Below, piece by piece: positions 70 to 19,646 of a DNA stretch of 37,806 bases. Within the stretch, counting starts at the first letter, position 1; every line of letters starts with the position of its first letter. A model generated the notes under the pieces. The model ran no database searches and was not told the origin of the DNA. It saw only the letters and a program-made list of their open reading frames with translations. Source of the stretch: an uncultured Verrucomicrobiota bacterium (GTDB taxonomy: Bacteria > Verrucomicrobiota > Verrucomicrobiia > Limisphaerales > CAIQOK01); assembly GCA_903873415.1 (NCBI GenBank), contig CAIQOK010000140.1, positions 1-37,806 of the forward strand, in the 5' to 3' direction. The translations under genes were made by a program, and so were the position numbers.

Positions 70-3000
70 TCAGGGAGCCACGGTCAAGTTGGCGTTGTCG
101 GTCATACGGTTCAACTGGAACGTGCCGGCAGACTGGAACGATCGCGAATTGGAACCCAATCCCAGCACGTTGAAGGTTTCCGCGTAAGTCCCGCTCAGCG
201 CCGTCGCCGCTCCGATCCGGCTCGCAAAGTCATCCCCCGTGCCTTGGAAATACAGCGTGATCTTGCGCTGCAGGTCATACGACTGCGACCCGCGCGCCAG
301 CATCGCACTGAACGTGGCGTTCAGATTGTTATGATCCGGATGATAGGCGTGGACGAACGGGTTCGCCGCCCGGTCGTTGTAATCCACAGACACCGTGGTG
401 GAGAGGGTGCTGCCCCTGGCCAATGCCCCATTGAAAGACCAGAGCGTGTTGGTGGGCGTCCAAGGGAGGTGCACCGCCGAGATGCGGCGCGCTTGGGTGA
501 GGAATTTCGCGTTCAGCGCCGATTCACCGCTGGAGATAATCGAGTTGGTGTAGGCGTCCAGACCGGCATAGACCCGCTGCATAAGAACGGCGGGCGATCC
601 GTTGGTCGGATTTTGAATGATTAAGCGCAACGGATAAGCGGCCGGAACGGCACCCAGATTGGTGTTGAGCGTGGAGAGATAAGTGCCCGTGGACGGGAGC
701 ATGATCACCCCGCTGGCGGCGTCGATGGAATACACATTGAACTGGCGGGAAAGCGTGTAAATGGCCGCGTTGGTGTTGCCCAAGGTGGACGCCACGACCG
801 CCAGGCGCGTGCCGTCACCGGAACTCGCCAACCCCGACCATTGGCTGGCCAAACTCCGGTTGTTCCAGGTGTTCCCTGCGTCGTCGGAGGTGTAAATCGG
901 ACTGCCCGGACCGGCGGCGACGATGTGCAATCCGTCCATGGAACAAGCCACCTTCGCGCCGGGGATGCTCAAGGTGCTGGTGCTAAAAGCCATGCCCGAG
1001 CTTTGGGAGATGGAAATCTGGCCGTTGGTGGAGACGGTGACCAGCGTGGTCAGGGTGGCATCGGCTGCCGCGGCCACGGTGGAACGGCCACCGCCGATCG
1101 CTGAATTCCAGGTGACGCCCATGTCGGAGGACTTATAGGCGCGGCCATCGTTGATGAAGGCAAGCACGTTACTGGCGTTGGCGGATTGCACCAGGGCGCC
1201 CCAGCTCTCGTTGGTGTTTGAGGTGGGCCGTGTGGCCGCCCAAGTCACCCCGGCATCGGGCGAGCGCAGGATAACTCCCACCGCAGTGATGGCGTAGAAG
1301 ACTGTGCCGTCCTGGGAGACGGAGATAGTCGTCCACGTGTTGGACCCGTAAGAGGCGGCGGTGGTGGCCCAGTGCGCGCCGTAGTCGCTGGAGAGATAGA
1401 GCGGGCCGTTGGTCACCGCCGCAAGAACCACCTTGCCGGAACTGGAACATGCCAGGGCCGACCAGGGTTTGTTCGTGACGGTGCCGGAGGGGTTGTTCGT
1501 GGCCACCGACGACCAGGTCTGGCCGTAATTGGAGGAGACATAAATTTGCCCCCCCGTGGAGTTGGTGCCGGCATCGGCGGCAAAGATGCGGCTGCCGTCC
1601 GCCGAAGAGGCCACAGCACTGTAATTGCAAGTCAGCACCGGGGCCAGACCGACGCCGTCCAGCAACACCGCCCCGAAGTCGGATGGGGAATTACTGGCAG
1701 TAATAAAAGAGAGCGTCATGGTGCTGTTGCTGGCGACAAAAGGCATACTCCACACCTCGGTGTAAGGGGTGGAAAAAGTCCCGGCGGCAGCCACCGGCAG
1801 GACGGTGTGGGCGGGAACGATCATCTGGCCGACATTGGCCGCAGTGCCAATAATCACCCGGGAGGTGAGATAACCGGCGTTCGTGACTGCCAGGCCGCCG
1901 TTGGCGGTGTCGCCGATCAGTTTGAACGCCGCGGCTGAGAAAGTGGTGTTCGTGCCGTAATTGGCACTGAATTCGAGGGATGCGGGGCCCACGCGCTGCC
2001 AATAAACCAGGCGGATGGGATAAACGCCTGCAACCATGTTGGTGAAAACGGTAATCCGGTCATCCGCGGTTTTATTCAGGTCGCACACCGCCACGTTGGT
2101 CCCGAGGGTAAAACGAAACCCCTCATCGCTGTTCACATGAAAAGAGTAAGTCCCGTTGGTGGGGATGGTGATTTGGGCGGTGGCTTCCAGGACCCAATTG
2201 GTGGTGGCGCTGCCCAGGCCGGGAAAGTTCGCGTCGTTGGCGAACTGGCCGCTGAGTCCGGCGTTGTTGGTATAATTAAGCACGGCGGCGTTGGTGGAGA
2301 AGAGAGTGGATTGGACGCCGGAGTTGGTGTTCGCCAGCAGAGCTTCGGCTTGAGCCACCGTGCCGACCGTGCCGGCGGCCAGCGTGCCGTTGCCCACCAC
2401 GACTTTCAACTTCCAGCCCGAAACCCGGGTGTTATTGTTAGTCACCGCAGCCTCGGCGTTCTCGAAATAATGCACCTGATAAACACCGCCCACCTGCAGA
2501 TTACTCACCACCTGGGAAAGAACGTTGCTGCCCTGGAGAAACGCCGTCTGCGTCCCGACGGGAATAATCCCGTTGTCGGCATAAGGCGAAAAAGAAACAC
2601 CGCCGGCCGCGCCGGGATTGATCCCGGTCAAGCCCGTCGCCGTCCAGCCTGTGAGATTCGTGTAACCGGGGAAGACAGTTACGGTATCGGTCTGGAAGCT
2701 GGGATTGATGAGAGGGATGCCTTGGGCATTGACCCAAGCGGCGCTGCTCAGCTCGGAGTTGGGGGCGCCCAGCCCGGCGGAAGCCACCGCCGAAGCGAGG
2801 GTAGACACAGAGTTACTGGCATAAGTCTTGAGATATTCGCCCACCTGACTTACAGAAGCATTGCCTACCCAGAGTCCGCCCAATGACCCGACTTGGGCCT
2901 GAACGGGAATGGGGACCTGCATGAAGCCCAGTGAATCGGTGAAGGTGATGATGCCGGCCAGAACGGAGCCTTGCGGGTAGGTGATGGCGGAGCGGTCCAA

Positions 3001-3972
3001 GCCCAAAGTAACAGCCAGAGAGGAGCCGGAAGTGCCGTAGGGCGCCAAAGTCCAGCTATAAGTCTGACTGGTGGAAAGCACGCTGTAACCGTAAGTGAGG
3101 TTGGTGGTATTCAGGGAACCCTTGATCAAAAGCGGCGGCACTCCAGCCAGAGCCGGCTGCCCCGCGGGCGGGGTGTCGGAGGCCGAGAGAGTGGCGGTGA
3201 TGGTGAGGGAGTTGGTGGAGAGATTGTTCAGTCGGAAAACGCTCTGGCCCAGGCTGGTTCCATAATTGATGCCGCCGGAGGCGACACTCACCACCTCGAA
3301 CGGGCCGAAGTAATTATTGAACACCGTGCCGGACCGCATCCAGTAAGCCTGTCCCCGGGCCATGGACGTAAGGGTGAAGAGAGCGGAACTAAGGAGTTTT
3401 GGATTGGTTCCTGCGACCAGCTCGCCGCCGACGTAATAATCCACCTCCGGGCTGACAGTCTGGAGGGCTTGGGATTGGCCGAAAAACGAGGCGAAGGTGG
3501 GGGGCGCATTGCTGACAACGGGAAAACCAATCAGGTTCAGGCCTGAGACGGTCCAAGTATGGCGGGGCGGCACGGGCTGGCCTTTGACCTGCCACTTGTA
3601 ATTGACGTTGGTGGCGCTGGACACATAGACGAGATAGGCGGAATCGCCGACGAGGTTCTGGAGAGTGGTGACGGAACTGTTGGTGCGGTTCCAGCACAGC
3701 CAGTCGAGGGTGGCGGTGGGGGTGGCGGGACTGTTGACGAACTGGGTGCGCAAGGAGGGGTTCCAGCGCCAGATCTGGGTGATGGGGTTGGAGGCGTCGG
3801 TGGCGACGAGGTTGCTGATGGAGTTATAGGAGGCGTCGACGTGGAGAAAGACGGCGTTCCAGCCGTTGGTGACCTGAACTGTCTGGGTGACCCACTGGGC
3901 GTTGGACCGGAGGACGCCGGCGGCCAGAAATATTGGCAGCAGGAGGAATCGGAGGTAAAAGGTGCAGTTCAT
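70..3972 (-). CDS. Large secreted protein with PA14 domain and BNR/sialidase-like propeller
   Basis: This 1300-residue protein begins with a clear signal peptide (residues 1 to about 26, hydrophobic LRFLLLPIFLAAGVL core, cleavage near SNA-Q), so it is exported. Residues about 410-500 (FQTDTV, GWTATG, VYQVHYFENAEA) look like a jelly-roll/DUF642-like binding module. Residues about 570-675 match a PA14 domain (YSFHVNSDEGFRFTLG, YPIRLVYWQRVGPASLEF). Residues about 780-1075 carry repeated Asp/Ser-box-like units (SSNYGQTW, SSDYGAHW, SPDAGVTW, SSDMGVTW, SDDAGNTW), which predict a beta-propeller. The C-terminal 220 residues are unassigned. The composition is rich in Ser, Thr, Asn, Gly and Ala, as is usual for secreted proteins of Verrucomicrobiota and Planctomycetota. 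No membrane anchor or sorting tail is obvious. The partner or substrate is unknown; carbohydrate binding is an inference from the PA14 and propeller folds. It stands alone with its own promoter at 4016-4045. Confidence 0.85.
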   Translation of the reverse strand: MNCTFYLRFLLLPIFLAAGVLRSNAQWVTQTVQVTNGWNAVFLHVDASYNSISNLVATDASNPITQIWRWNPSLRTQFVNSPATPTATLDWLCWNRTNSSVTTLQNLVGDSAYLVYVSSATNVNYKWQVKGQPVPPRHTWTVSGLNLIGFPVVSNAPPTFASFFGQSQALQTVSPEVDYYVGGELVAGTNPKLLSSALFTLTSMARGQAYWMRSGTVFNNYFGPFEVVSVASGGINYGTSLGQSVFRLNNLSTNSLTITATLSASDTPPAGQPALAGVPPLLIKGSLNTTNLTYGYSVLSTSQTYSWTLAPYGTSGSSLAVTLGLDRSAITYPQGSVLAGIITFTDSLGFMQVPIPVQAQVGSLGGLWVGNASVSQVGEYLKTYASNSVSTLASAVASAGLGAPNSELSSAAWVNAQGIPLINPSFQTDTVTVFPGYTNLTGWTATGLTGINPGAAGGVSFSPYADNGIIPVGTQTAFLQGSNVLSQVVSNLQVGGVYQVHYFENAEAAVTNNNTRVSGWKLKVVVGNGTLAAGTVGTVAQAEALLANTNSGVQSTLFSTNAAVLNYTNNAGLSGQFANDANFPGLGSATTNWVLEATAQITIPTNGTYSFHVNSDEGFRFTLGTNVAVCDLNKTADDRITVFTNMVAGVYPIRLVYWQRVGPASLEFSANYGTNTTFSAAAFKLIGDTANGGLAVTNAGYLTSRVIIGTAANVGQMIVPAHTVLPVAAAGTFSTPYTEVWSMPFVASNSTMTLSFITASNSPSDFGAVLLDGVGLAPVLTCNYSAVASSADGSRIFAADAGTNSTGGQIYVSSNYGQTWSSVATNNPSGTVTNKPWSALACSSSGKVVLAAVTNGPLYLSSDYGAHWATTAASYGSNTWTTISVSQDGTVFYAITAVGVILRSPDAGVTWAATRPTSNTNESWGALVQSANASNVLAFINDGRAYKSSDMGVTWNSAIGGGRSTVAAAADATLTTLVTVSTNGQISISQSSGMAFSTSTLSIPGAKVACSMDGLHIVAAGPGSPIYTSDDAGNTWNNRSLASQWSGLASSGDGTRLAVVASTLGNTNAAIYTLSRQFNVYSIDAASGVIMLPSTGTYLSTLNTNLGAVPAAYPLRLIIQNPTNGSPAVLMQRVYAGLDAYTNSIISSGESALNAKFLTQARRISAVHLPWTPTNTLWSFNGALARGSTLSTTVSVDYNDRAANPFVHAYHPDHNNLNATFSAMLARGSQSYDLQRKITLYFQGTGDDFASRIGAATALSGTYAETFNVLGLGSNSRSFQSAGTFQLNRMTDNANLTVAP

Positions 3973-4350: not shown

Positions 4351-5880
4351 TCATATTGATGAGGGATGTGCGCGTGAAAACCAAGTGCGCCAGCCCTCGG
4401 TCAATTCGAGCCAGCCCCATCCGGCCAAAGCCCGGAGCAGGGGCAATGAGGTTTTTGGGGAGAAAGTGAAACCGGAAATCAATTCGCGGCGTCCATCATT
4501 GCGACGCCCCCAGAGGCCGCGCTGGCGTCGGATCCGGGCCATTTGGGCGAAACGTCGGTTGTAGAGGCGCATGAAGCAGAAAAACGGGAGGGAATGCGGG
4601 GTGGAAAAGGCGGGAGACGCCAGAGCCATGGCCCCGAGTTTGAATGGTTGGGATGCCACCCCGAGGTAATAGAGTCCCAGATCGAGCTGAAAGGCGCGGC
4701 GCATCAGCTCGTATTCACCCATGTATTCGTATTTGTCCTGATACACGGCCGCAAACCACCTCTGGTAGCTGTCGGTAAAAGCCTGATTAAGCCGGGCAAT
4801 CCGGGGGGGCAAGGGTTCGCCTCGTTGGCCGGCCAGAACCAATTGTGCGGCCGACCAGGTGCTGTAGGAAATCCAGTCCATGCCCGGGCTGTAGAATGGA
4901 TCAAGAAATGCCGCGGCATCGCCCACCAGGACAAAGCCATCACCGGCAAAGGTGGCGCTGGAATAAGCAAGATTTTTTCGGGAATGCACATCCCCTTCAC
5001 GCCACTGCGCCTGGGCCATCAACTCGCGGCCGACGGGGTGCTGGAGCAGAAAGTTTTTCAATCGATCCCCCGGCAGGCCCTCCGCCGGCCACGATACCAG
5101 ACGCTGATCAAACACCACGCCCACACTCATGTCCCCGCCCTTGAGGGGAATAATCCAAGCCCACCACCCCGACCCGAGGAGATGATTGGTGGCCGTGCCG
5201 CGAACGCCCTTGCAGGCTACAGCCCAGGCGGGGAATTTGCCGGCCAATTCAAGGCCATCCCAGTCCTTCACCCCCGTCCATCGGGCCCAGACCGCCGAGG
5301 TGGGATGGGCTGTATTGATCCGCCGCCACCCCTGTTGGCGTGCGAGCAGGGCGACCACGCCTGAAGCGTCCACCACCCAACGAGCCGAGACCTTGCGCAC
5401 GGTGCCGCCATGCCGCACCTCCAGAATTTGCCGGCCGCCTGGGCAGAGTTCTATCCTCCCCACACTGGCTGGCCGGCATACTTGGGCGCCCACCTCTGCG
5501 GCGCGGCGCAGAACCTCCTCATCCAGTGCCGCGCGGTCCACCTGAAACGCGGGGACTCGCGACAGGTATTCCCCCCCGATCTCAGTGGCTTGGTCCAGGG
5601 TGGTGGCGCGCGGGTTGGCGAACCAAAAACGCATCCCCTGCTTGACCAGATGCGATTCGTTGAGGTATCGGGTCAGGCCGAGAACACGGCAGAGAAAATA
5701 ACCACTCACCTCCACCGTTGCCTCCCCCACCCGCCGATTGAAGGCCGGGGATTTTTCGAGGATCAATACCCGCAACCGCGGCTGCTCCCGCAAAAGCAAA
5801 ATCGCCGTGGCAGCACCCGAGAGCGCCCCCCCCACCACGGCCACATCAAAAGAATCCGCATCCGGGCAGGTGGCATTCAT
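4351..5880 (-). CDS. Flavin-dependent halogenase-like FAD oxidoreductase
   Basis: This 509-residue protein starts with a Rossmann FAD-binding segment (VAVVGGALSG, residues 13-22, a GxGxxG variant with Ala in the third position). It carries WAWIIP near residue 238, matching the WxWxIP signature of flavin-dependent halogenases. It also carries FLDPFYSPG near residue 325, matching their Fx.Px.Sx.G motif just after the FAD-contacting VLVGDAA. Lys80 in HLVKQGMRFW sits about where the catalytic lysine of PrnA/PltA-type enzymes is found. From family knowledge such enzymes use FADH2, O2 and halide to halogenate an activated substrate, often one tethered to an acyl carrier protein. A longer open frame to 6021 is rejected because it overlaps the upstream gene; ATG 5880 precedes the FAD motif by a normal distance. 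It lies 26 bp downstream of the periplasmic-protein gene, apparently in one operon, and divergent from a KS/CLF/KR/ACP set. A non-halogenating reductase or hydroxylase of the same superfamily is possible. Confidence 0.75.
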   Translation of the reverse strand: MNATCPDADSFDVAVVGGALSGAATAILLLREQPRLRVLILEKSPAFNRRVGEATVEVSGYFLCRVLGLTRYLNESHLVKQGMRFWFANPRATTLDQATEIGGEYLSRVPAFQVDRAALDEEVLRRAAEVGAQVCRPASVGRIELCPGGRQILEVRHGGTVRKVSARWVVDASGVVALLARQQGWRRINTAHPTSAVWARWTGVKDWDGLELAGKFPAWAVACKGVRGTATNHLLGSGWWAWIIPLKGGDMSVGVVFDQRLVSWPAEGLPGDRLKNFLLQHPVGRELMAQAQWREGDVHSRKNLAYSSATFAGDGFVLVGDAAAFLDPFYSPGMDWISYSTWSAAQLVLAGQRGEPLPPRIARLNQAFTDSYQRWFAAVYQDKYEYMGEYELMRRAFQLDLGLYYLGVASQPFKLGAMALASPAFSTPHSLPFFCFMRLYNRRFAQMARIRRQRGLWGRRNDGRRELISGFTFSPKTSLPLLRALAGWGWLELTEGWRTWFSRAHPSSI

Positions 5881-5906: not shown

Positions 5907-6512
5907 TCAATCCACCCGGTCGATGTGAAGATCGACTTTGAGCACAGTGCCGTCGGCCGCGGAGATGTAGACATCCCCAATGCTGGTGTCGTCGTTGGGG
6001 TTCTTGAGGCGGGCGGCCCAAAGACGCACCTTCCAGACGGGGGATTCCAAGGAGGGATCGAACTTGAACCTGGAATTCAGGGACAGCTGGGTTGCGCGGA
6101 GCGTGATGTTCTTCAACAGTGGCTGGGCGGAAGCAATTTGGATGGCCTTATTGGAGTCGGTGTGCAGTTTTTTAGGATCGAAAATATTTTCAGCTTTGAT
6201 GTATTCGATCATGCGCAGGGGCCGGGAGACAGCCAGCTTCTGGCCCGCGCCGAATTTCACCTCGGTGCTTTTAAAGGTTGCGTCAGCATCGTAGTAGACC
6301 ACCCACCAAATCGTGGGAAAAAGGCTGCCGATGGATTTTTCGGAGCGGATTTGGACCACTTTGTCTCTGGAATCCTTGCCGACGTAATCATTGCCGGCCT
6401 TGATGAGCTCAAAGGCGGTGGGTTCGGCGGCGAAGGCCGCTTGGCAAAGCAAAGCCATGGCCAGAGCGGCCAATCGGAGTGTTTTTTGGAGACCGGGGTG
6501 TTTATTCATCAC
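5907..6512 (-). CDS. Exported protein with PepSY-like C-terminus, function unknown
   Basis: The protein has 201 residues (200 from the adjacent ATG at 6509). It begins with a signal peptide (about residues 10-29, LRLAALAMALLCQAAFA) and is otherwise soluble, so it is probably periplasmic. The C-terminal half has alternating strands ending in VWKVRLWAARL and GDVYISAADGTVLKVDLHIDRVD, which resembles the PepSY-type fold seen in small periplasmic proteins. This is a judgement by eye. No catalytic motif or lipobox was seen. It is the first gene of a two-gene unit with the halogenase-like gene, and divergent from the ketosynthase operon. A role in handling or exporting the product of that locus is a guess from position only. 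The promoter at 6519-6547 predicts transcription starting at the GTG, so the message may be leaderless. Confidence 0.7.
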   Translation of the reverse strand: MMNKHPGLQKTLRLAALAMALLCQAAFAAEPTAFELIKAGNDYVGKDSRDKVVQIRSEKSIGSLFPTIWWVVYYDADATFKSTEVKFGAGQKLAVSRPLRMIEYIKAENIFDPKKLHTDSNKAIQIASAQPLLKNITLRATQLSLNSRFKFDPSLESPVWKVRLWAARLKNPNDDTSIGDVYISAADGTVLKVDLHIDRVD

Positions 6513-6566: not shown

Positions 6567-6595
6567 TTGACTTGCAGGCGTGTTCACTCTTTAAT
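6567..6595 (+). promoter_or_regulatory. Promoter of the ketosynthase operon
   Basis: TTGACT (6567-6572), a 17-bp spacer and TTTAAT (6590-6595) match sigma-70 boxes at five of six positions each. It is back to back with the minus-strand promoter, with the two -35 boxes 19 bp apart. The -10 box overlaps the first ATG of the ketosynthase frame (6594), which argues for a start codon further in. Confidence 0.55.
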
Positions 6596-7856
6596 GGCGG
6601 GGCAGCCTAGTGACATTGTTGTGTTATTTCCTGTTTCCAAATCCGCTCATCCGCACCGCGTGGTCGTCACCGGCGCGGGGATTCTCACCGCTCTGGGTGC
6701 CGGATGGCAGCCCAACGCGCAGGGCTTTCGGGCCGGGCGCGTGGCGATGCGGCCGGTGTCCCTTTTTCCCGTGGACCGGCAGCGGATTGGGCTGGCCGGG
6801 GAAGCGGACCTGCCGCCCCTGCCGTCCACCCGGTTGGGTGCCCGGCAAATGAAACGCATGGACCGGGCGGCCACGATGCTGCTTTTCGCCGCGCATGAGG
6901 CCTGGATTCAATCCGGCTGGGGACCATCGGATGATTTGCCGCTGGTGCTAGGCACCACCAGCGGAGGGATGATGCTGGGGGAAACCTACTACCGCCAAGC
7001 CATCCAGACGCCTGACCTGCGGCGAGGCCAGGCCGAGCGCGTCCACAATTACCTTGCCCAACGCCAGGGCTTGAATCTGGCCGATGCCTTTGGATTCAGC
7101 GGACCGATGACGATCATTGCCAACGCCTGCGCCTCAGGGGCCAACGCTATTGGGCATGCCTTTGAGCTGCTGCGCCGCGGCGGGGCCCGGCGGGTTCTGA
7201 CAGGCGGTTACGACGCCCTGAGCCAAGTGGTGTTTGGGGGATTTGACTCTCTGCAAGCCCTCTCCCCAACGCGCTGCCGGCCATTTGATGTGCGGCGCGA
7301 TGGACTGGCGCTGGGAGAAGGCGCGGCTGTGCTCGCTCTGGAAACGCTGGACTCAGCGCGGCGACGCGACGCTTTGATTCTGGGCGAAATCGTCGGCTAC
7401 GGCGCGGCGAACGACACGCATCATTTAACCCAGCCCCATCCTCAGGGAGAAGCAGCCGTGACCTCGATGAGTGCGGCCTGCACCTGCGCCGGGCTCAGTC
7501 CGGAGAAAATAGATTATCTCAACGCGCACGGGACCGGCACCCCGCTGAATGACTCCGCAGAGGCGGCGGCAATCAACAAATGGGCCGGCACTCATGCCGC
7601 GCGGCTGCCTGTCAGCTCCACCAAATCGAGCATCGGCCATCTTCTGGGGGCGGCCGGGGCGGTGGAAACCGTGGTTTGCCTGATGGCTCTGCAGGGCCAA
7701 TGGCTGCCTCCCACCTCCACACTGGAAACACCCGACCCGGCCTGCGGTTTTCCTCTGGTGCAAACCCCCGCCGACGCCGCGCTGGAATATGCGCTGACCA
7801 ATTCATTTGGATTTGGAGGTGCCAACGCATCGCTCATCCTTCGGAGGCATCCATGA
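6594..7856 (+). CDS. Beta-ketoacyl-ACP synthase, FabF/KS-alpha type, catalytically intact
   Basis: The 420-residue protein has the full ketosynthase catalytic set: Cys179 in NACASG, His312 in NAHGTGT, Lys344 and His349 in STKSSIGH. Family knowledge assigns it decarboxylative Claisen condensation of a malonyl-ACP extender onto an acyl chain. The open frame continues upstream to 5925, but that part is antisense to the neighbouring gene and is discarded. ATG 6594 is given as the start; GTG 6621 or GTG 6660 (just before VVTGAG) may be the true one, because the predicted -10 box covers 6594. A start at 6621 would give 411 residues, very close to the usual FabF size. Its stop overlaps the start of the next, active-site-less ketosynthase by four bases, which suggests a KS/CLF heterodimer as in type II polyketide and aryl polyene systems. 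Since the partners are not fatty-acid genes, this is probably not the housekeeping fabF. Confidence 0.85.
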   Translation: MAGQPSDIVVLFPVSKSAHPHRVVVTGAGILTALGAGWQPNAQGFRAGRVAMRPVSLFPVDRQRIGLAGEADLPPLPSTRLGARQMKRMDRAATMLLFAAHEAWIQSGWGPSDDLPLVLGTTSGGMMLGETYYRQAIQTPDLRRGQAERVHNYLAQRQGLNLADAFGFSGPMTIIANACASGANAIGHAFELLRRGGARRVLTGGYDALSQVVFGGFDSLQALSPTRCRPFDVRRDGLALGEGAAVLALETLDSARRRDALILGEIVGYGAANDTHHLTQPHPQGEAAVTSMSAACTCAGLSPEKIDYLNAHGTGTPLNDSAEAAAINKWAGTHAARLPVSSTKSSIGHLLGAAGAVETVVCLMALQGQWLPPTSTLETPDPACGFPLVQTPADAALEYALTNSFGFGGANASLILRRHP

Positions 7857-8896
7857 GCGGGGTTTTTATAGCCGGTCTGGGCGCGGTGTCACCGGCTGGG
7901 TGGACTGTCGCATCCCTGCGCTCAGCCCTGGCAATCGGGCTGCCCCTGCCTGCGGTGGATCTGCCTCGCCCGGGGTGGGCCCGGCGGCCCCTGAGCGTCC
8001 GACAGGTCCCGCCACCAGAGCAGCGCCCCGCCTTCGTCACACACCCCCGGCTGCGCCGGACCAGCCCGGTGGCACATCACACCCTGTCGGCCGCCTTGGA
8101 GGCACTAGGAGTGGATGCGGCTCTGATTTCCAGCGGGGCCCTGACTCTGGGAATCATCTACTGCACGATGAACGGGTGTGTGAATTATTCGCGCCGTTTT
8201 TACGACGAGGTGCTCAAGGACCCGCGCACCGCCAGCCCGCTGCTCTTTCCGGAAACCGTGTTCAACTCTCCAGCCAGCCATCTGGGTTCGCTGCTGGGTG
8301 CCACGGCTGTTAATTACACTCTGGTGGGCGATGCCGGGGTTTTTCTCCAAGGCTTGGCACTGGCCGCCGAGTGGCTGACCGACGGCCGGGTCGGAGGCTG
8401 TTTGGTGGTGGGGGCGGAGGAGACGGACTGGCTGCTGGCCGACGCCCTGAGGCTCTTTGACAGGCAGGCAGTTGCCGCCGCCGGCGCGGGCGCAATCTAC
8501 CTGCGAACCGGACCGGAGAGGGGCGCGGCGGTGCGGCTGAGCGCCGTCACAAACCCGCACCTCTTCCGCGCTGGAATCCCGCGCCGACACGCCGCACAAT
8601 TGGCCCGCGAGGAAATTGCCTTCAACCCGCCCCCCGCCCTGCTCTGCGACGGTCTGCAAGGTTCGGAGCGGTCGGACCGGGATGAGCGCGAGGTGTGGGC
8701 AGACTGGACGGGAATCCGGATTTCGCCCAAGCGGATTTTAGGCGAGGGGTTCACGGCGGCAGCGGCCTGGCAATGCGTGGCCGCCGCAGACATGCTGGGG
8801 CGGGAGCCCTTCTCCGCGGCGACCGTGAGCGTGGTGGGCTGCCATGCGCAAGCCATTGCCGGCCAATTTATAAAAACAAACCCGACTGAATCCTGA
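7853..8896 (+). CDS. Ketosynthase-like protein without active site, chain-length-factor-like
   Basis: This 347-residue protein has a thiolase-fold start (FIAGLGAVSPAG) and KS-like spacing, but its catalytic residues are gone. In the segment equivalent to TACASG it reads LVGDAG, with Gly159 in the nucleophile position. The His of HGTGT has no counterpart (LLCDGLQGS), and the last His is Glu298, while Lys293 of the STK-like SPK segment remains. This is the pattern expected of a chain length factor that pairs with an active KS. Known factors usually carry Gln in place of Cys, so Gly is unusual. The ATG overlaps the stop of the KS gene (ATGA) and has a strong GGAGG at 7843-7847, five bases upstream, which decides the start. 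Stoichiometric, coupled translation with the KS is likely. A diverged KS with another acyl-transfer role is the alternative. Confidence 0.75.
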   Translation: MSGVFIAGLGAVSPAGWTVASLRSALAIGLPLPAVDLPRPGWARRPLSVRQVPPPEQRPAFVTHPRLRRTSPVAHHTLSAALEALGVDAALISSGALTLGIIYCTMNGCVNYSRRFYDEVLKDPRTASPLLFPETVFNSPASHLGSLLGATAVNYTLVGDAGVFLQGLALAAEWLTDGRVGGCLVVGAEETDWLLADALRLFDRQAVAAAGAGAIYLRTGPERGAAVRLSAVTNPHLFRAGIPRRHAAQLAREEIAFNPPPALLCDGLQGSERSDRDEREVWADWTGIRISPKRILGEGFTAAAAWQCVAAADMLGREPFSAATVSVVGCHAQAIAGQFIKTNPTES

Positions 8897-9628
8897 ATGA
8901 ATTTGCGCGTTGTATTGATCACCGGTGCCAACGGGGGGGTGGGCCAGGCCATCGCCCGGGATTTCCTTGGAGAGGCGTCGGAGAATTTTGTCTGGATGGG
9001 AGTGCGCGAGCGGCGCGAGGCGGCCGCCGGGTTGGCCGCGCAATTTCCCGAGCGCTGCCGATGCCTTGAACTGGATGTGACGCGGCCCGAGTCCTGGAAA
9101 ACCGCTGTGGATTCCATCCTGTCGGTGCATTCGCGCCTGGACGTTCTGGTCAACAACGCAGGCAAACACCAGGACGCCCTGCTGGCCACCATGCCCGCCG
9201 ATGCTTGGGAGTCGGTGCTGAGTTCCAATCTGGACGGCGCCTTTCACGGGTGCCAAGCCGTGCTGCCGGCAATGATTTCGCAACGGGGGGGGCGGATTGT
9301 GAACATCGCCTCACTCAGCGCGCTGATGGCGCCTGCAGGCCAGGCGAATTACGCCGCCGCCAAGGCCGGCGTGGTGGCCCTGACCCGGTCCCTGGCCAAG
9401 GAGGTGGCGCGCTTGAACATCACCGTCAATGCGGTTTGCCCGGGGTTTGTGGAGACCGAGGCCCTGGCAACCTTGGGACCGGATGAGCGCAAAGCCGCGC
9501 AGAGCCGCATCCCAATGCGCCGCTTTGGCCGGCCCGAGGAGGTCGCCGCCGCCGTCCGCTTTCTGGCTTGCGCCCAAGCCTCTTACATCACAGGCTCGGC
9601 GTTGAAAATTGATGGCGGCATTTTTTGA
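8897..9628 (+). CDS. 3-oxoacyl-ACP reductase, FabG-like SDR
   Basis: The 243-residue protein is a classical short-chain dehydrogenase. It has a TGANGGVG nucleotide-binding loop near residue 10, NNAG near residue 90, the catalytic triad Ser139, Tyr152, Lys156 with the FabG-like spacing, and a PGFVET segment after the fifth strand. From the family it should reduce the beta-keto group on an ACP-bound chain with NADPH. The start codon follows the stop of the preceding gene with no spacing, so translation is coupled. In context it is the ketoreductase of the KS/CLF/ACP set. No dehydratase follows it, so either the product keeps a hydroxyl or a dehydratase elsewhere in the genome acts in trans. Confidence 0.85.
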   Translation: MNLRVVLITGANGGVGQAIARDFLGEASENFVWMGVRERREAAAGLAAQFPERCRCLELDVTRPESWKTAVDSILSVHSRLDVLVNNAGKHQDALLATMPADAWESVLSSNLDGAFHGCQAVLPAMISQRGGRIVNIASLSALMAPAGQANYAAAKAGVVALTRSLAKEVARLNITVNAVCPGFVETEALATLGPDERKAAQSRIPMRRFGRPEEVAAAVRFLACAQASYITGSALKIDGGIF

Positions 9629-9657
9629 GCCGCCCAAAACGCCGGCTGTTTTTCATC

Positions 9658-9924
9658 ATGGAAGATTCAATTGCCCTGAAAAAAAGGCTCAAGACGATGC
9701 TGGTGGAGAACCTCATGCTCCAGCTCACCATCGACGAAATCACCGATGACCAGGCGCTCTTTGGCCCGGAAAGTCTCGGACTAGACTCGGTGGACGCGCT
9801 GCAGCTGGTGGTGGCGCTCGACAAGAATTTCGGCCTGAAAATCCCCGACCCGGCCGCGGCGAAGATCGTGCTGCAGAGCGTCAACTCGATGGCACAGGCG
9901 GTGCAGGACCTCCCGACCGCCTGA
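9658..9924 (+). CDS. Acyl carrier protein
   Basis: The 88-residue acidic helical protein carries the phosphopantetheine site GLDSVDALQL with Ser44. Size and motif are typical of an acyl carrier protein. DSVD instead of the DSLD of housekeeping AcpP fits a dedicated pathway carrier. ATG 9658 is chosen; a TTG at 9625 overlapping the FabG-like stop would add 11 residues. It is the last gene of the KS-CLF-KR-ACP operon, 29 bp after the reductase. It faces rsmB, whose stop is only seven bases away, with no visible terminator between them. It presumably tethers the growing chain, and could also present the substrate to the divergently encoded halogenase-like enzyme, as PltL does for PltA in pyoluteorin synthesis; that is inference. 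Confidence 0.85.
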   Translation: MEDSIALKKRLKTMLVENLMLQLTIDEITDDQALFGPESLGLDSVDALQLVVALDKNFGLKIPDPAAAKIVLQSVNSMAQAVQDLPTA

Positions 9925-9931
9925 GCCCCTT

Positions 9932-11071
9932 TCAGTCCGCTCTCCGCCAGGCGGCGATGAACATGCCGTTTCCGCGATGATCCTGGGGCCACAGGGTGCG
10001 GGTGGCGGGAAGTGTGGGGGCAGTAGGAGCGCCGGCCGTGCCGAAGATATCCGGCAACTCGAGGGGTTTGAGTTCCGGATGCGCGCGGGAAAACTGGTCC
10101 ACAACCCCGCTGGTTTCCGCACCTGTCAGCGTGCAGACGGAATACACCAGCTTGCCGCCGGGGCGCAGTGCCGGGGCTGCGTGATTGAGCAACTTCAACT
10201 GGATCGAGGCCAACTCCTGGACATCCTGCGGCGTGGTGGTCCAACGCGCATGAGGATTGCGCTGCCAGGTGCCCAGACCGCTGCACGGAGCGTCGAGCAG
10301 GATGCCATGGAATTTGGTCTTGGTGGGCAGTTTGGCGCCGCCGTCCCAGAGGGCGGAGCGGAAATTAAACACTTGGGCACGGGCGGCCCGGCGTTTAAGC
10401 TGCTGCAAGCGCGAGGCAGACCGGTCACTGGCCCAGATCAGTCCTTTGTTTTCCATCAACCCGGAGAGCTGCAAGGTTTTACCGCCCTGCCCGGCGCAGG
10501 CATCCCACCAGGTCTGACCCGGCTGCGGGCTGCAGAGAAAGCCCACGGCCTGGGAATTGAGATCCTGAATCTCGAATTCTCCTGCATGAAATTCCGGACG
10601 CCGGAACAGGTCCTCCAAGCCCAGATAAAGCACCGCGTCGGGCAGAGGTGACTTCCAAGTGGTGCCCAGCTTCTCGGAAAGGATCAGGCCCTGACCACGG
10701 CGGGCGCGCAACCACAACTTGGGTTCGGCTTGAATGGCGCGGACCCACGCCGGGGAAAGGCTCAGCTCCGCTTGCACCCAAGGCGGCACAGCCCGCTCCA
10801 CCAGAGTCTCGTCGGAAAAGGATTGGGGGCGCTCGGCGAAGGTGCGGGCCAGTTCGAGCGCCGCTTGGATTTGCGCCGTCAGGGGACTTTCCCGCTCCAG
10901 CCAGTTCCACCAGCGAAAGTAGCTGAACACGGCCCGGCTGATTTCCCGGGTCTCCTCGCTGGTGGGCAATCGGCGGGAAGCCAGCGCGTCGCGCAAAACC
11001 ACATCGGCCGGGTGCTCACGACTGGCATGACCCACCACTTCGGCCGCAATTTGAAGAACCAGAGAACTCAT
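9932..11071 (-). CDS. rsmB: RsmB/NOP-family rRNA (cytosine-5)-methyltransferase
   Basis: This 379-residue protein has the features of SAM-dependent RNA m5C methyltransferases: a DACAGQGGKT SAM loop, motif IV DAPCSGLGT with its release Cys, and motif VI YSVCTLTGAET with the catalytic Cys. The N-terminal 140 residues are helical and resemble the NusB-like domain of RsmB, which methylates C967 of 16S rRNA. The symbol is the closest family name; substrate position is not proven, and the protein is somewhat shorter than E. coli RsmB (429 residues). ATG 11071 is chosen because a TAAGAT hexamer (11078-11083) ends six bases before it, suggesting a leaderless message; a GTG at 11077 would add two residues. 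It is convergent with the ACP gene. Confidence 0.8.
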   Translation of the reverse strand: MSSLVLQIAAEVVGHASREHPADVVLRDALASRRLPTSEETREISRAVFSYFRWWNWLERESPLTAQIQAALELARTFAERPQSFSDETLVERAVPPWVQAELSLSPAWVRAIQAEPKLWLRARRGQGLILSEKLGTTWKSPLPDAVLYLGLEDLFRRPEFHAGEFEIQDLNSQAVGFLCSPQPGQTWWDACAGQGGKTLQLSGLMENKGLIWASDRSASRLQQLKRRAARAQVFNFRSALWDGGAKLPTKTKFHGILLDAPCSGLGTWQRNPHARWTTTPQDVQELASIQLKLLNHAAPALRPGGKLVYSVCTLTGAETSGVVDQFSRAHPELKPLELPDIFGTAGAPTAPTLPATRTLWPQDHRGNGMFIAAWRRAD

Positions 11072-11077
11072 CCGCAC

Positions 11078-11083
11078 ATCTTA
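11078..11083 (-). promoter_or_regulatory. -10 hexamer of rsmB
   Basis: TAAGAT on the minus strand ends six bases before ATG 11071. No good -35 box is seen 16-18 bp upstream, so support comes from the repeated spacing pattern in this window. Confidence 0.35.
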
Positions 11084-11153
11084 CACAAAGCTGCGGCGGG
11101 AATACAGAGAAAGCACCGGCGGTTTCATGGCGAAGCCCTCCATCACATTAAAG

Positions 11154-11679
11154 CTAAAAACCGCAGTTGGAGTTCAACCGGGCGGAGCGGGCGCGGCGGG
11201 CGGACCATTCGAGGGGAATATCAATGGTTTTGCGGATGGTCTGGCGCAGAAAGTCGCTGGAGATGAAGGTTGCTGCGCCCGGAACGGGGCGCACTCCGCA
11301 AACCAAAACCGTCGCCTTGGGTTCCAACTGCGGCGCAGTTATCGCCAACCACGTCCGCAGCCGCTCGTAGCAGCCTTTCAACATCTGCCACCACTCCCCG
11401 TTCACCGCCATAGAGCAGTGCCACCTGTTCGGGCTTCGCCAAGCCCCGATCCGGGTCCGCAAATTCACCGTGATTTCATCCCCGGGCGCTTCCGGAACTG
11501 ATTGTGCGGGTGATCCCCAGGTGGTTGAGAAAGCCGCTCCACGTAGAGAGGCCGCCGTAAGGCGTGAGCACCTCTTTCGTTCGTCTGACCGTGAATTTGC
11601 CCGGCAAGTTGCCCAAGGAACTCTCGTCCTTTCCTTCACCCGCGAGATAAACCGAAACCAACGATGTAAAAGTGCTCAT
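11154..11679 (-). pseudogene. Probable truncated, frameshifted transposase remnant
   Basis: Reading from 11679 on the minus strand, a frame starting MSTFTSL runs through KFTVRRTKEVLTPYGGLSTW and GFLNHLGI, then stops at 11476. The LTPYGGL...FLNHLGI segment resembles the N-terminal start of DDE transposases of the IS1380/IS4 kind. A second frame on the same strand (stop at 11154) takes over near that point and ends in a plausible C-terminus (FISSDFLRQTIRKTID). This fits one gene broken by a frameshift and heavy deletion. The total is about 525 bp against some 1.2-1.5 kb for an intact transposase, and no DDE motif is visible. No terminal inverted repeats were found. The family assignment is weak and rests on one short motif. 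The region otherwise fills a 740-bp gap between rsmB and xseA. Confidence 0.35.
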
Positions 11680-11691
11680 CGCCCACGATTT

Positions 11692-11814
11692 TATTCACTC
11701 ATTCACTCCTTAACCGTCCTTAACCGCCACTTCAACTGCGGAGATTAGGTGAAAACACTGTGAATAAGCCCTCCGCCTTGTGTCACCGGGGGATTCAGAC
11801 CTGGCGGATGCTTA
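11692..11814. repeat. Short direct repeats in the spacer downstream of xseA
   Basis: Two adjacent 8-base copies of ATTCACTC (around 11693-11708) are followed by TTAACCGTCC and TTAACCGCCA, two near-identical 10-base units (around 11710-11729). No gene is visible. The repeats lie beside the transposase remnant and may be a scar of insertion or deletion. Confidence 0.3.
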
Positions 11815-13242
11815 TCAGGTCCCGGGGGGTGTCAGCTCGACCCGGCTGAAGATCTGACCGTCCTTGAGGCGGGTTTTGAGCAGCTGTCCGTCGGAAATCT
11901 GGGCGGCACCGCGCACGATCAAACCCGTTTCGGCAGAAAGGGTGATGGAATAACCACGCCCCAAAACCTGCTCCGGACCGAGCAGCCGGACCCGGGTTTC
12001 CAATCCATCCACTCTGGTCTTAGCTAAACGAAGGCGGCCGCGCACCATCTCCTGCAAACGAAGGTCGTGCTGGGCCAGCGACTCGCGCTGCAGACGCAGC
12101 CATTGAGCAGGTCGCACCCGGGCCAAACGGTCGGCAAGAGTGCGCCAAGCCGTTGCCTGTCCACGGAGAGCAGAGCGGGCGCAACGCAGCATGGCCGACT
12201 GAAAGTCATCCAGGCGCTGCAACTGCTCGTTAAGACGGCGGCGGGGGTGCACCCGGGCCAAACGCCTGGACAATTGCGCGGACAGCTCCCGGTCCCGGCT
12301 CCATCGGCGCCGGGCGCGCTGCGCCAAACGGAGTGCTGCGGCCGCCACGAATTGACGGCTGGCAAACATGCCTTCGGTGATGATTTCCGCGGCGGCGCTG
12401 GGGGTGGCGGCGCGCACATCGGCAACAAAATCCGCTATGGTGAAATCAATCTCGTGCCCGACCGCAGACACCACGGGAATGGCCGATTCAAACACAGCGC
12501 GGGCGACCACTTCCTCGTTGAAGGCCCACAAATCCTCAAGAGACCCGCCCCCGCGGGTGATCAGAATCAGATCCAGGCGGCAGTGGGGCGGCCGTTCGTT
12601 GGCTTCATTGAGCAGGCGGATGGCTGCGGCGATCTCGGCGGCGGCGCCATCGCCCTGGACCCGGCACGGTGCCAGAATAATCTCCAACCCGGGCTGACGC
12701 CGCTGAATCACGTGCAACACGTCGCGTATGGCCGCGCCGGTGGGCGAAGTCACCAGGCCGATGCGCTGGGGATACGCGGGCAAGGGTCTTTTGCGCTGGG
12801 GCGCAAAAAGACCCTCAGCGGCGAGCTGGCGCTTCAATTTTTCAAACTTCAATTGGAGCGCCCCAACCCCCTGCAACTCCACCTCACGCACCAGCAACTG
12901 ATATTGGCCGCGCGCCTCGTAGACCGTCACCTCCCCATTCAGCAGGACTTTTTGTCCGTCGGCCACCAGGCTGCGCTGCGCGGTCGCCGCTCCCCGGAAT
13001 AAAACACAACTGAGCTGGGCCGATGCATCCTTGAGCGTGAAATACATGTGCCCTGAACCTTGGAGACGCAGATTGGTCACCTCGCCGCCGACCCAGACCT
13101 GACCCACCTGCCGTTCCAAAAGACTCTTGACCCGGGTCGTCAGCTCGGACACCGACATCACCGCACGGCTGGGAGGCGGGGAAAACAAGTCCCCGAAGTC
13201 CCACTGGGATTTGGATGGTTTCGCGCTCAATTCAGGCACCAT
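11815..13242 (-). CDS. xseA: Exodeoxyribonuclease VII large subunit
   Basis: The 475-residue protein matches XseA along its length. It has an N-terminal OB-fold (VWVGGEVTNLRLQGSGHMYFTLKD, residues about 48-72), and the catalytic core contains IGLVTSPTGAAIRDVLHV, LILITRGGGSLEDLW and VVSAVGHEIDFTIADF with the family's conserved Asp, Arg and His residues. A long basic helical region follows, and the short C-terminal domain carries LGRGYSI. With XseB it degrades single-stranded DNA to oligonucleotides in repair. No xseB is adjacent in this window. The first ATG is used; MSVSEL at residue 29 is a possible shorter start. It lies 67 bp downstream of pdxJ on the same strand and may be co-transcribed with it. 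Confidence 0.92.
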   Translation of the reverse strand: MVPELSAKPSKSQWDFGDLFSPPPSRAVMSVSELTTRVKSLLERQVGQVWVGGEVTNLRLQGSGHMYFTLKDASAQLSCVLFRGAATAQRSLVADGQKVLLNGEVTVYEARGQYQLLVREVELQGVGALQLKFEKLKRQLAAEGLFAPQRKRPLPAYPQRIGLVTSPTGAAIRDVLHVIQRRQPGLEIILAPCRVQGDGAAAEIAAAIRLLNEANERPPHCRLDLILITRGGGSLEDLWAFNEEVVARAVFESAIPVVSAVGHEIDFTIADFVADVRAATPSAAAEIITEGMFASRQFVAAAALRLAQRARRRWSRDRELSAQLSRRLARVHPRRRLNEQLQRLDDFQSAMLRCARSALRGQATAWRTLADRLARVRPAQWLRLQRESLAQHDLRLQEMVRGRLRLAKTRVDGLETRVRLLGPEQVLGRGYSITLSAETGLIVRGAAQISDGQLLKTRLKDGQIFSRVELTPPGT

Positions 13243-13309
13243 TAAGCCAGAGATTCAGGCCACAGCAAACTCAAACCCGCTTCAATCGCGGCGGAGGCCA
13301 CCCCCTCAA

Positions 13310-14050
13310 TCAGGCCCGATATCCTTCCAGAAGCAAAAGCATCTCGGTGACCGCGCCGGGCAGTCCAACCATGACGGCCCGGCTGACCACGCTATGACCT
13401 ATGTTCAACTCCGCCAGATGCGGGACTTGCCGCAGCGCGGGCAGATTTTCGTAGTTCAGCCCATGCCCGGCATTGACTTTAAGGCCCAAGCCATGAGCCT
13501 GCTTGGATGCGGCGACCAACCTTGCCGTCTGGAAATCGCGGCGGTTCAGGTCGTCGAATTGCCCGGCAAAAGCACCGGTGTGCAACTCCACAAATTGCGC
13601 CCCCACCCGCGCCGCCGCAGCCACCTGCCCTTCCTCCGGAGCGATGAACAGGCTGACATCAATTCCGGCATCGTTCAGCCGCTGGCGCGTCCGGCTCAGA
13701 TCCCCCTCCGCGGCCACCACGTTCAATCCGCCCTCGGTTGTAACCTCCTCCCTCCGCTCAGGAACGATGCAGACGATTTCGGGCTTGATCGCCAGCGCCA
13801 AAGCGACGATCTCCGGGGTGTCGGCCATTTCAAAATTCAGGCAGGTGCGGATGGATTCGCGCAAGCGCCAGACGTCCCGGTCCTGGATATGGCGGCGATC
13901 CTCGCGCAAATGTGCGGTGATGCCGTGGGCGCCGGAGGCTTCACAGGCCAGCGCTGCCGCCACCGGATCGGGCTCCCCACGGGCGCATCCTCGATAGCGG
14001 GCCTCGCGCAAGGTGGCGACGTGATCAATGTTGACGAATAACTTGAGCAT
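13310..14050 (-). CDS. pdxJ: Pyridoxine 5'-phosphate synthase
   Basis: This 246-residue protein fits PdxJ in size and motifs: LFVNIDHVATLREAR at the start, EASGAHGITAHLREDRRHI, a CIVPERREEVTTEGGL loop, and the C-terminal GHGLNYENLP and LNIGHSVVSRAV segments. PdxJ condenses 1-deoxyxylulose 5-phosphate with 3-amino-2-oxopropyl phosphate to make pyridoxine 5'-phosphate, the last ring-forming step of the DXP-dependent vitamin B6 route. The promoter at 14057-14085 ends six bases before the ATG, so the message is predicted to be leaderless. The gene is divergent from the vanZ-like gene and upstream of xseA. Confidence 0.95.
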   Translation of the reverse strand: MLKLFVNIDHVATLREARYRGCARGEPDPVAAALACEASGAHGITAHLREDRRHIQDRDVWRLRESIRTCLNFEMADTPEIVALALAIKPEIVCIVPERREEVTTEGGLNVVAAEGDLSRTRQRLNDAGIDVSLFIAPEEGQVAAAARVGAQFVELHTGAFAGQFDDLNRRDFQTARLVAASKQAHGLGLKVNAGHGLNYENLPALRQVPHLAELNIGHSVVSRAVMVGLPGAVTEMLLLLEGYRA

Positions 14051-14056
14051 GTAAGA

Positions 14057-14085
14057 ATCCTAGGGTATGGAAAGCTCGTTTTCAA
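14057..14085 (-). promoter_or_regulatory. Promoter of pdxJ
   Basis: On the minus strand TTGAAA (14080-14085), a 17-bp spacer and TAGGAT (14057-14062) end six bases before the ATG at 14050. This is one of the clearest examples of the leaderless layout in the window. Confidence 0.6.
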
Positions 14086-14133
14086 AACCGATCTGAGAAT
14101 TATTTGCCAACCCTTGGAATTCACCCCCCCTTC

Positions 14134-14649
14134 ATGACTCCTTTTCAATCCTTTTTAAAATACTGGTTTCCGATTGTGGCTTGGTGGGCTCTGATCTTCA
14201 CCGCCTCATCGGACGCGGGTTCCTTCAACCATTCCTCGCGGCTGGTGGAGCCTTTACTGCGCTGGCTGGTTCCGGATATTTCAGAGGCTGCGGTGAGAAC
14301 GGCAGTGCTCGTGGTGCGGAAAGGAGCGCATCTGACCGAATACGCTACGCTGAGCATCCTTTGCTGGCGGGCCTTGCGCAAACCGATCCGGCGCGATCCG
14401 CGCCCATGGTCGTGGCGCCAGTCCGCCGCAGCCCTGCTGCTGGTGGTCCTTTATGCGGCCAGCGACGAATGGCACCAGACCTTTATTCCCAGCCGCGATG
14501 GTTGCGTGCGGGATGTGCTGATCGATTCCTCGGGCGGCGTGGCGGGATTGCTTGGGCTGTGGTGGCTGGGAAGCCGGCTGGGTTGGTGGGCTGCAGCGCC
14601 CGGAAAAACGGGCTCGGAACCGCGGAGCGATTTCTGTTCACAGCCTTAA
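14134..14649 (+). CDS. VanZ-family membrane protein
   Basis: The 171-residue protein has about four hydrophobic segments and the VanZ hallmarks: RKGAHLTEYATLSIL (KxxHxxEY) and SDEWHQTFIPSRDGCVRDVLIDSSGG (SDExHQ, R, DxxxDxxG). VanZ proteins are linked to teicoplanin resistance and are otherwise poorly understood integral membrane proteins. The ATG at 14134 is preferred over an upstream TTG at 14104. comEC follows after 21 bp, so the two are probably co-transcribed. A functional link to DNA uptake is not implied. Confidence 0.8.
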   Translation: MTPFQSFLKYWFPIVAWWALIFTASSDAGSFNHSSRLVEPLLRWLVPDISEAAVRTAVLVVRKGAHLTEYATLSILCWRALRKPIRRDPRPWSWRQSAAALLLVVLYAASDEWHQTFIPSRDGCVRDVLIDSSGGVAGLLGLWWLGSRLGWWAAAPGKTGSEPRSDFCSQP

Positions 14650-14670
14650 GAAGCCGGAGTAAGGTGGCGG

Positions 14671-17097: not shown

Positions 17098-17479
17098 TGG
17101 CTTCCCCCGGATGCGAACTTGCCACCCGGACGAGCCGTGACAAAGTGTTTTCTGGAAACCGGGTTTACTACGGACTGCTTCTCCCCCGGAATTTCCTCCC
17201 CGGCTTGGCAGGACGGACGGGTTGCTGGCAGGATGTTGAAAGCCTTTTAAAAAGACCCACGCACCCAAAACGAATGGTTTTGCAGGGTAAAGGCCGGAAA
17301 ACCAATCTCAAAATCGGCTCCTAGGCATTTGAACGCGCCTGTGCTAGGATGGGGACATCACGAACATTGCGGCACCAGCAGCCGTCAAATTGCTTTCATG
17401 AAAGGAGCCAGGAACAGAGTGCAAGATTTTGGGCGACCACAACGGCGGCAGTCCGCCAAAACAAAAACAGTAGCATACC
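17098..17479. other. Gene-free spacer of about 380 bp
   Basis: There is no convincing coding frame, tRNA or RNA gene. A loose inverted repeat (GGTTTT near 17275 and AAAACC near 17300) has a long loop and no T-run, so I do not call it a terminator. The promoter of the CBS-domain gene presumably lies in the right part but no good box pair was found. Confidence 0.45.
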
Positions 17480-17926
17480 ATGCCCTGCACAAACACCATC
17501 AGCGAAATCCTTAAACTCAAGGGTTCCCATGTCTGGAGCATCTCCCCGGAATCAACAGTCTTTGAGGCCATCAAGATGATGGCCGAGAAAGATGTGGGGG
17601 CGCTGCTGGTCACAGAAGGGAATAAGCTTCTTGGACTGGTCACGGAACGGGACTACACGCGCAAGATCGCCCTCAAGGGAAGATCCTCCAAGGAGGTTAA
17701 AGTGCGCGGGATCCTTTCCGAACGCCTGGTGGCTGTGAGCCCTGCCCACAAGGTCGAGGACTGCATGCGACTGATGACGGAAAACCGGGTCCGGCATCTG
17801 CCGGTTCTGGAGGCGGGCATCATCCAAGGCCTGGTGTCAATCGGGGATTTGGTCAACTCGATCATCTCCGAGCAGGACACCACCATTCATCAACTGCAAA
17901 CCTACATCAGCGGCCACCCGGCCTGA
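17480..17926 (+). CDS. Two-CBS-domain protein
   Basis: The 148-residue protein is almost entirely a tandem CBS pair. The first copy spans about residues 10-65 (VFEAIKMMAEKDVGALLVTEGNKLLGLVTERDYTRKI) and the second about 75-130 (VEDCMRLMTENRVRHLPVLEAGIIQGLVSIGDLVNSII). Such stand-alone pairs bind adenine nucleotides and act as regulatory or energy-sensing modules. The partner is unknown, since neighbours on both sides are unrelated and the next gene faces the other way. The ATG at 17480 has no Shine-Dalgarno sequence. Confidence 0.85.
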   Translation: MPCTNTISEILKLKGSHVWSISPESTVFEAIKMMAEKDVGALLVTEGNKLLGLVTERDYTRKIALKGRSSKEVKVRGILSERLVAVSPAHKVEDCMRLMTENRVRHLPVLEAGIIQGLVSIGDLVNSIISEQDTTIHQLQTYISGHPA

Positions 17927-18118
17927 AAAGAGATTCGGCACGAACGGTGGAGGGACCCCGCCGGAAATGGAATTTCAATGCCAACCCGGCGGAAAAGACT
18001 CCCTGTTCAAGCAATGCTTTAATTGAAAAACCGGGGGTGATCCATTGTTTTGCCGTGGGCGGGCAAGCCGGAGTCGACTGCTTTTCAAAGCGGCCCCGGG
18101 AGCGGAGACCGCAGCAAT

Positions 18119-18475: not shown

Positions 18476-18491
18476 AAAATTTCCAATATTT

Positions 18492-19559: not shown

Positions 19560-19565
19560 GCGCGG

Positions 19566-19593
19566 AGTGTAGCCGTCCGGGGCGGAGAGGCAA
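19566..19593 (-). promoter_or_regulatory. Promoter of the HAD-Nudix/folB unit
   Basis: On the minus strand TTGCCT (19588-19593), a 16-bp spacer and TACACT (19566-19571) end six bases before GTG 19559. A leaderless message is predicted. Confidence 0.45.
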
Positions 19594-19646
19594 CAGAATC
19601 AAAAGACGCTTTCGCTGCCGGCGCCCAAACGCCACAATGCGTGAAG

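Follow-up and report, generated by a model that had tools for sequence, protein, structure and literature searches.

The window, that is, the whole stretch of 37,806 nucleotides that was analysed, is a complete contig (C140) of an uncultured Verrucomicrobiota bacterium whose genome amounts to 3.8 Mb over 189 contigs. An open reading frame of 509 aa is found at exactly 4351-5880 on the minus strand with its ATG at 5880, and this start is backed by two related loci (L001 and L002), whose proteins both begin M-N-A there. We call this protein and its relatives family A. The 201-aa protein encoded directly upstream matched nothing in Pfam and NCBIfam, and its homologues adjoin family A in L001 and L002 only among the loci searched; at least one of the other clusters, that of L054, contains a LolA-like gene. 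A divergent operon on the other strand encodes a ketosynthase (KS), a KS-like protein, a ketoreductase and an acyl carrier protein (ACP), and an active-site cysteine of the KS-like protein, sought by eye in its sequence, was not seen. The ACP, which an earlier note on this DNA had placed next door to a putative halogenase, is indeed encoded here as the fourth gene of the operon, but it lies on the other strand, 3.8 kb from the family A gene and separated from it by four genes. The layout in L002 matches that of the window: the ACP, SDR, second KS and KS genes are on one strand, and the small gene and the flavoprotein gene are on the other. Downstream of the family A gene, Pfam points to a 1300-aa protein with PA14 and sortilin/BNR-like stretches (70-3972, minus strand), and after the cluster, at 9932-20210, to housekeeping-type genes for RsmB/F methyltransferase, exonuclease VII large subunit, PdxJ, ComEC, a CBS protein, a NUDIX/HAD fusion and a pseudouridine synthase.

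Table 1. Genes and sequence features around the family A gene, in window positions; A1 is the 33-row family alignment.
Feature	Position	Strand	Basis or remark
Flavin-dependent-halogenase-like protein (family A), 509 aa	4351..5880	-	Pfam, NCBIfam and PDB matches; 33-row alignment
GGALSG, residues 17-22, FAD-binding loop, GxAxxG	5815..5832	-	Middle Gly is Ala in 31/33 rows, Ser in 2/33
Lys80, candidate catalytic lysine	5641..5643	-	Lys in 33/33 rows of A1 and in 8/8 solved-halogenase fragments
WAWIIP, residues 240-245 (WxWxIP)	5146..5163	-	W240, W242 and I244 in 33/33 rows; P245 in 32/33
FLDPFYSPG, residues 325-333 (FxxPxxSxG)	4882..4908	-	F325, P328, S331 and G333 in 33/33 rows; same S-P-G in MalA'
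Small protein, 201 aa, signal-peptide-like N-terminus	5907..6512	-	Directly upstream of the family A gene, same strand
Ketosynthase, active-site Cys in NACASG as judged by eye, start uncertain	6594..7856	+	Pfam ketoacyl-synt N and C; NCBIfam FabF-like
Degenerate second ketosynthase / chain-length-factor-like, start uncertain	7853..8896	+	Weak KS matches only; homologue in L002
FabG-type SDR ketoreductase	8897..9628	+	Pfam, NCBIfam; FlxB model 210.9 bits, under the 340-bit cut-off
Acyl carrier protein, LDSVD site	9658..9924	+	Pfam PP-binding

Relatives of the family A protein were collected by scanning genome contigs with patterns of the window protein, and the 25 candidate stretches obtained gave nine Verrucomicrobiota loci and a fragment of 36% identity in Pleomorphomonas, the best match being L001 ("Verrucomicrobia subdivision 3 bacterium UBA3939", 71% identity). 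A search of 288 genomes of the phylum at E 1e-30 gave matches to family A in 23, and a profile search at 1e-40 found it in 30 of 387, 29 of which belong to the class of the window and one of which lies outside it. The family comprises a close group (46-71% identity to the window protein) and a distant one (36-42%). The close group is represented by 27 loci (the window, L001-L009 and L039-L055), some with short flanks; KS and ACP homologues are present inside the fetched flanks in nine of these loci, and no KS plus ACP was found near family A in the other 18, some short flanks included. At the loci of the distant group, no KS or ACP homologue was found; the family A gene there adjoins a gene of another family, F3, in five of eight loci (L056, L059, L060, L062 and L063), and F3 is weakly lipid-A-acyltransferase-like, under the Pfam cut-off. 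When viral contigs were searched with the family profile, no family A was found among 16 candidate stretches, one of which holds a relative: the halogenase-like protein of an IMG/VR viral contig (L065:5001-6002) shares 25% identity with the window protein and falls in a clade with CtcP and PltM (100/100).

Conservation was examined in alignment A1, whose 33 rows (25 close and 8 distant family members) consist of the window protein, seven of the nine Verrucomicrobiota loci from the pattern scan and 25 further loci; L007 and the truncated L009 are absent from it and were used only in a 10-row alignment. The earlier note had read three flavin-dependent halogenase (FDH) signatures in the protein, and two of these, WxWxIP and FxxPxxSxG, are complete and in the order given there, with Lys80 and all the residues listed as invariant in Table 1 kept in every row down to 36% identity. 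The third did not hold in its strict form, because GxGxxG occurs nowhere in the 509-aa protein, and GxAxxG or GxSxxG takes its place in all the rows. When the protein sequence was shuffled 200,000 times, WxWxIP arose in 194 of the shuffled versions, FxxPxxSxG in 1,432 and the two together in the right order in only one. GxGxxG or GxAxxG arose in 121,475, and therefore the glycine motif alone is uninformative. GxGxxG is described as common to almost all flavoenzymes (PMC8407142), and FDHs with GxGxxA in its place have been described (PMC12871659). Because the strict GxGxxG is absent, we regard the protein as a variant that would work like an FDH and not as a plain member; judging from its sequence, family A may be a side branch of this well-known enzyme group with an altered FAD-binding loop.

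As controls for the two longer motifs, both are present in eight of eight solved-halogenase fragments and in none of three E. coli flavoproteins (FixC, UbiH and UbiI). The proposal that Lys80 is near the usual catalytic lysine position is borne out by the same fragments, all of which carry Lys in this column, six of them sharing K-x-G; among the E. coli controls, Lys is found in FixC, in a poorly aligned stretch, and not in UbiI or UbiH. Pairwise HMMER alignments put Lys80 opposite the Lys of CndH and CtcP; CmlS and PltA have two neighbouring Lys at this point, and Lys80 pairs with one of them. The roles of the motifs, the halide site and Lys87 of PltM are treated in PMC5945002, PMC6424973, PMC8407142, PMC12871659, PMC10696468, PMC7336383 and PMC4859513. 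In BrvH and RebH, the halide is held by backbone amides at x and G of SxG (PMC5945002). We considered Pro332 of the S-P-G as a possible bar to halide binding and rejected this objection, because MalA' also has S-P-G and the family member L054 has S-S-G.

Sequence profiles place family A near the FDHs. The Pfam Trp_halogenase model gives 54.4 bits for the window protein (cut-off 21), but it also exceeds its cut-off in five of 14 control genomes, including E. coli and three archaea, and thus membership in this Pfam family alone is not specific. The best NCBIfam model is CmlS, at 103.9 bits far under the equivalog cut-off of 900, and the best matches in a sequence search of the PDB are CndH, CmlS, FasV and PltA. 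When the profile of A1 was compared with solved structures, 18 halogenase sequences (11 enzymes, mutants included) scored 78-125 bits, among them CmlS 125, CndH 122, PltA 113, FasV 108, CtcP 103 and, lowest, MalA' 78. A Cytophaga flavoprotein (3nix) scored 91, the first clearly different protein (3oz2) 41.5 and QhpG 22.3; a Trp-5-halogenase (5uao), which belongs to a proven halogenase group, reached only 28.5, under 3oz2. Among the matches listed, the identity of the window protein to solved halogenases is 17-24%.

The structure predicted from the 10-row alignment has a pTM of 0.83 and a mean pLDDT of 81, with pLDDT under 50 at residues 331-333. In a Foldseek search with this model, rows 1-45 are halogenases except for the chains of 3nix, and they contain PltM, 3nix, CtcP, ChlB4, FasV, PltA, Bmp2, CndH, Mpy16, CmlS, MalA' and RadH; reductases and hydroxylases rank behind. 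By VIA-align, the halogenases and 3nix have Z values of 25.2-28.1 and the hydroxylases 23.1-25.0 among the 50 matches listed, the lowest halogenases being tied with the highest hydroxylases. The longest fold alignments are those with PltM and CtcP, which cover 430-438 residues and reach model residue 476-487; those with PltM extend over 431-438 residues versus 404 for PltA.

A tree of 37 rows unites the close and distant groups of family A in a single clade (100/99) with a stem of 1.77. After three other rows were removed, with the long FixC and UbiH rows kept, family A formed a clade with FixC at a support of 54/17, and in the same reduced tree neither a grouping with UbiH/UbiI (p-AU 0.113) nor one with CtcP/PltM (p-AU 0.45) was rejected. 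Because of these competing deep placements, we use the tree only for the unity of family A, and we have dropped it as proof of descent from halogenases. Profile scores speak against a clustering with reductases or hydroxylases, but the reduced tree does not reject one. Taken as profile score, fold, conserved Lys80 and two of the three motifs, the evidence supports a nearness to FDHs, and the assignment to the halogenase family made in the earlier note most likely stands in substance.

A second FDH-like gene, which we call B, was found within the flank in 13 of the 27 close loci, in some of them touching or overlapping the family A gene; examples among L039-L054 are L054:11067-12416 and L048:11287-12567, both on the minus strand. 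The Lys, WxWxIP and FxxPxxSxG are present in all 17 second flavoproteins that were compared, two of which are of a more distant type and one of which is an unlinked gene of the window's own genome. One copy of B was searched against solved structures and matched ChlB4 at 204 bits and PltA at 185. Going by the sequence of this one PltA/ChlB4-like copy, B rather than A may be the stronger candidate for a halogenase in these clusters. The nearest B-like gene in the genome of the window is on contig C40, close to an NAD kinase gene, and is not linked to family A. A third, very divergent type of FAD protein with MLSPGMW was observed near family A at L039:12714-13997 (plus strand) and L047:6143-7462 (minus strand).

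The operon beside the family A gene contains, at 6594-9924, genes expected of an aryl-polyene type II PKS cluster, namely a KS, a chain-length-factor-like (CLF-like) partner called from weak matches, an ACP and a ketoreductase. Among the 20 window ORFs scanned, Pfam recognised no exporter, acyl- or glycosyltransferase, dehydratase or head-group gene, and the clusters of some relatives carry MMPL exporter, glycosyltransferase, acyltransferase and LolA-like genes, as aryl-polyene clusters do. The MMPL exporter of the relatives is present in eight of the 18 genomes in which the search at E 1e-30 gave close family A and was not found in the other ten, including the genome of the window; conversely, an exporter match above 300 bits was obtained in 17 genomes, and eight of these have close family A. 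On these counts we rejected the idea that family A is bound to aryl-polyene clusters. The KS/CLF-like pair comes with a halogenase gene in published examples of such clusters, those of Lysobacter and Xylella excepted, and pigments with 0-2 Br are reported for Xanthomonas, which has the halogenase gene, and a pigment without Br for Lysobacter, which lacks it (PMC3691225). In the open-access literature searched, nothing was found that joins aryl polyene, halogenase and Verrucomicrobia, or flexirubin, halogenase and aryl polyene.

The explanation that we prefer, and to which we give about an even chance, is that family A is a halogenase-like lineage, so far uncharacterised, and that the probable target of its halogenation is made by the type II polyketide/fatty-acyl pathway encoded alongside. 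From the motifs, conservation, proximity in fold and sequence, and neighbourhood that were observed, we infer an activity, a halide, a substrate and its free or carrier-bound state along the following lines. FAD, reduced by a flavin reductase, would react with oxygen and halide, and HOX would travel through a tunnel, with WxWxIP and FxxPxxSxG at its sides, as far as Lys80, which would steer it to an electron-rich position on the acceptor molecule. This substrate would most likely be a product or intermediate of the divergent KS, CLF-like, ketoreductase and ACP pathway, and an aryl-polyene-like or fatty-acyl phenolic lipid would be the likely class. That the model aligns over such a length with PltM and CtcP speaks slightly for a free rather than a carrier-bound substrate.

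The main rival, which appears to us somewhat unlikely, is a flavin monooxygenase on the halogenase scaffold, which would hydroxylate or epoxidise what the neighbouring pathway makes, at its aryl head or its polyene, and in which Lys80 would have another role. QhpG provides a precedent, since this Trp dihydroxylase has a CmlS-like fold with Trp181 and Trp183 in its flavin channel (PMC7876137); because it keeps these tryptophans and yet hydroxylates, WxW in the channel is by itself no bar to hydroxylation. A further precedent is the arc cluster of Azoarcus, in which arcA is annotated as a halogenase and yet the pigment, C41H52O4, is halogen-free (PMC3949708). Judging by analogy with these two cases, the motifs do not prove halogenation. 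The atypical GxAxxG points in the same direction, as does Asp335, the second residue past the SxG glycine, which is present in all 33 rows of A1 and is replaced by S, H, T or I in eight solved halogenases. Against the monooxygenase stand the completeness of WxWxIP and FxxPxxSxG in family A, the low score of QhpG with the family profile and the invariance of Lys80; no Lys is named among the QhpG channel residues in the accessible part of PMC7876137.

A narrower form of the preferred explanation, in which a PltA-like halogenase would modify a substrate while the neighbouring ACP carries it, had been suggested from the presence of the carrier gene. The divergently encoded KS, CLF-like protein, ketoreductase and ACP, an arrangement that recurs in L002, leave room for it, but the model shares more of its fold with PltM and CtcP than with PltA, the SPG stretch is closest to that of MalA', the PltA/ChlB4-like type is represented by the paralogue B, and KS and ACP are missing near most family A genes; we therefore take this special case as possible but not favoured, and quite unlikely. 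A reductase or another redox enzyme of the geranylgeranyl-reductase/FixC type is very improbable, because its points of support, a TIGR02032 match of 61 bits and the loose grouping with FixC in the reduced tree, are set against a cut-off of 158.8 bits for that model, scores of 25-42 bits for solved proteins of this kind with the A1 profile versus 78-125 for most halogenases, and an E. coli FixC without WxWxIP and FxxPxxSxG.

Within the explanation as a halogenase, a more elaborate scheme takes the second flavoprotein into account. Family A could be a separate Verrucomicrobiota halogenase lineage that works in tandem with a nearby PltA/ChlB4-like B, each enzyme modifying its own positions on an aryl-polyene-like lipid of the envelope; in the organism of the window, where no partner is linked to it, family A would act alone on what a reduced KS, CLF-like, ketoreductase and ACP module produces. 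We regard this scheme as tentative and, as a whole, rather unlikely.

That halogenases of this phylum are little characterised, as had been remarked, agrees with the open-access literature searched (including PMC6644159 and PMC4926216), in the accessible parts of which no characterised halogenase from Verrucomicrobiota was found; PMC6644159 mentions "previously reported halogenases from Verrucomicrobia". If family A is active as a halogenase, the FDHs would gain a branch on which no experiments have been done, and its GxAxxG and S-P-G loops would serve as a test of which motif positions are truly needed. If it proves to be a hydroxylase, this would be at least as useful, because Lys, WxWxIP and FxxPxxSxG together would then be no guarantee of halogenation, and a current annotation pipeline relies on the latter two motifs (PMC12871659).

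Among the known systems, the variant-B FDHs CmlS and CndH (PDB 3i3l and 3e1t) are the best profile matches, and their Lys, WxWxIP and FxxPxxSxG align with those of family A. They differ in that identity is 20-24%, that their loop is GxGxxG and that of family A GxAxxG, and that family A has S-P-G-M-D in place of S-Q-G-V-H or S-S-G-V-H; of the 900 bits of the CmlS equivalog model, family A reaches 104. PltA, ChlB4 and Mpy16 have the same Lys and longer motifs as family A but match one paralogue B much better (174.9-204 bits). ChlB4 and Mpy16 are carrier-dependent. The peptidyl-Trp dihydroxylase QhpG (PDB 7ctq) shares the fold (VIA Z 23.3) and channel tryptophans, and differs in its profile score of 22.3 bits and in that it hydroxylates. 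The phenolic and tetracycline halogenases PltM and CtcP (PDB 6bza and 7v0b) give the longest structural alignments at 17-20% identity to family A; in PltM, Lys87 is catalytic and the C-terminus includes a helical region, and its substrate is phloroglucinol, that of PltA being a carrier-loaded pyrrole (PMC6424973). The SPG stretch of family A is matched best by MalA' (PDB 5wgr and related), a halogenase crystallised with premalbrancheamide, whose chain of 667 residues aligns with family A in sequence only in this stretch and in the N-terminal part, and the two proteins share there RKxLAYxS...GDAxxFxxPxYSPG, S-P-G included.
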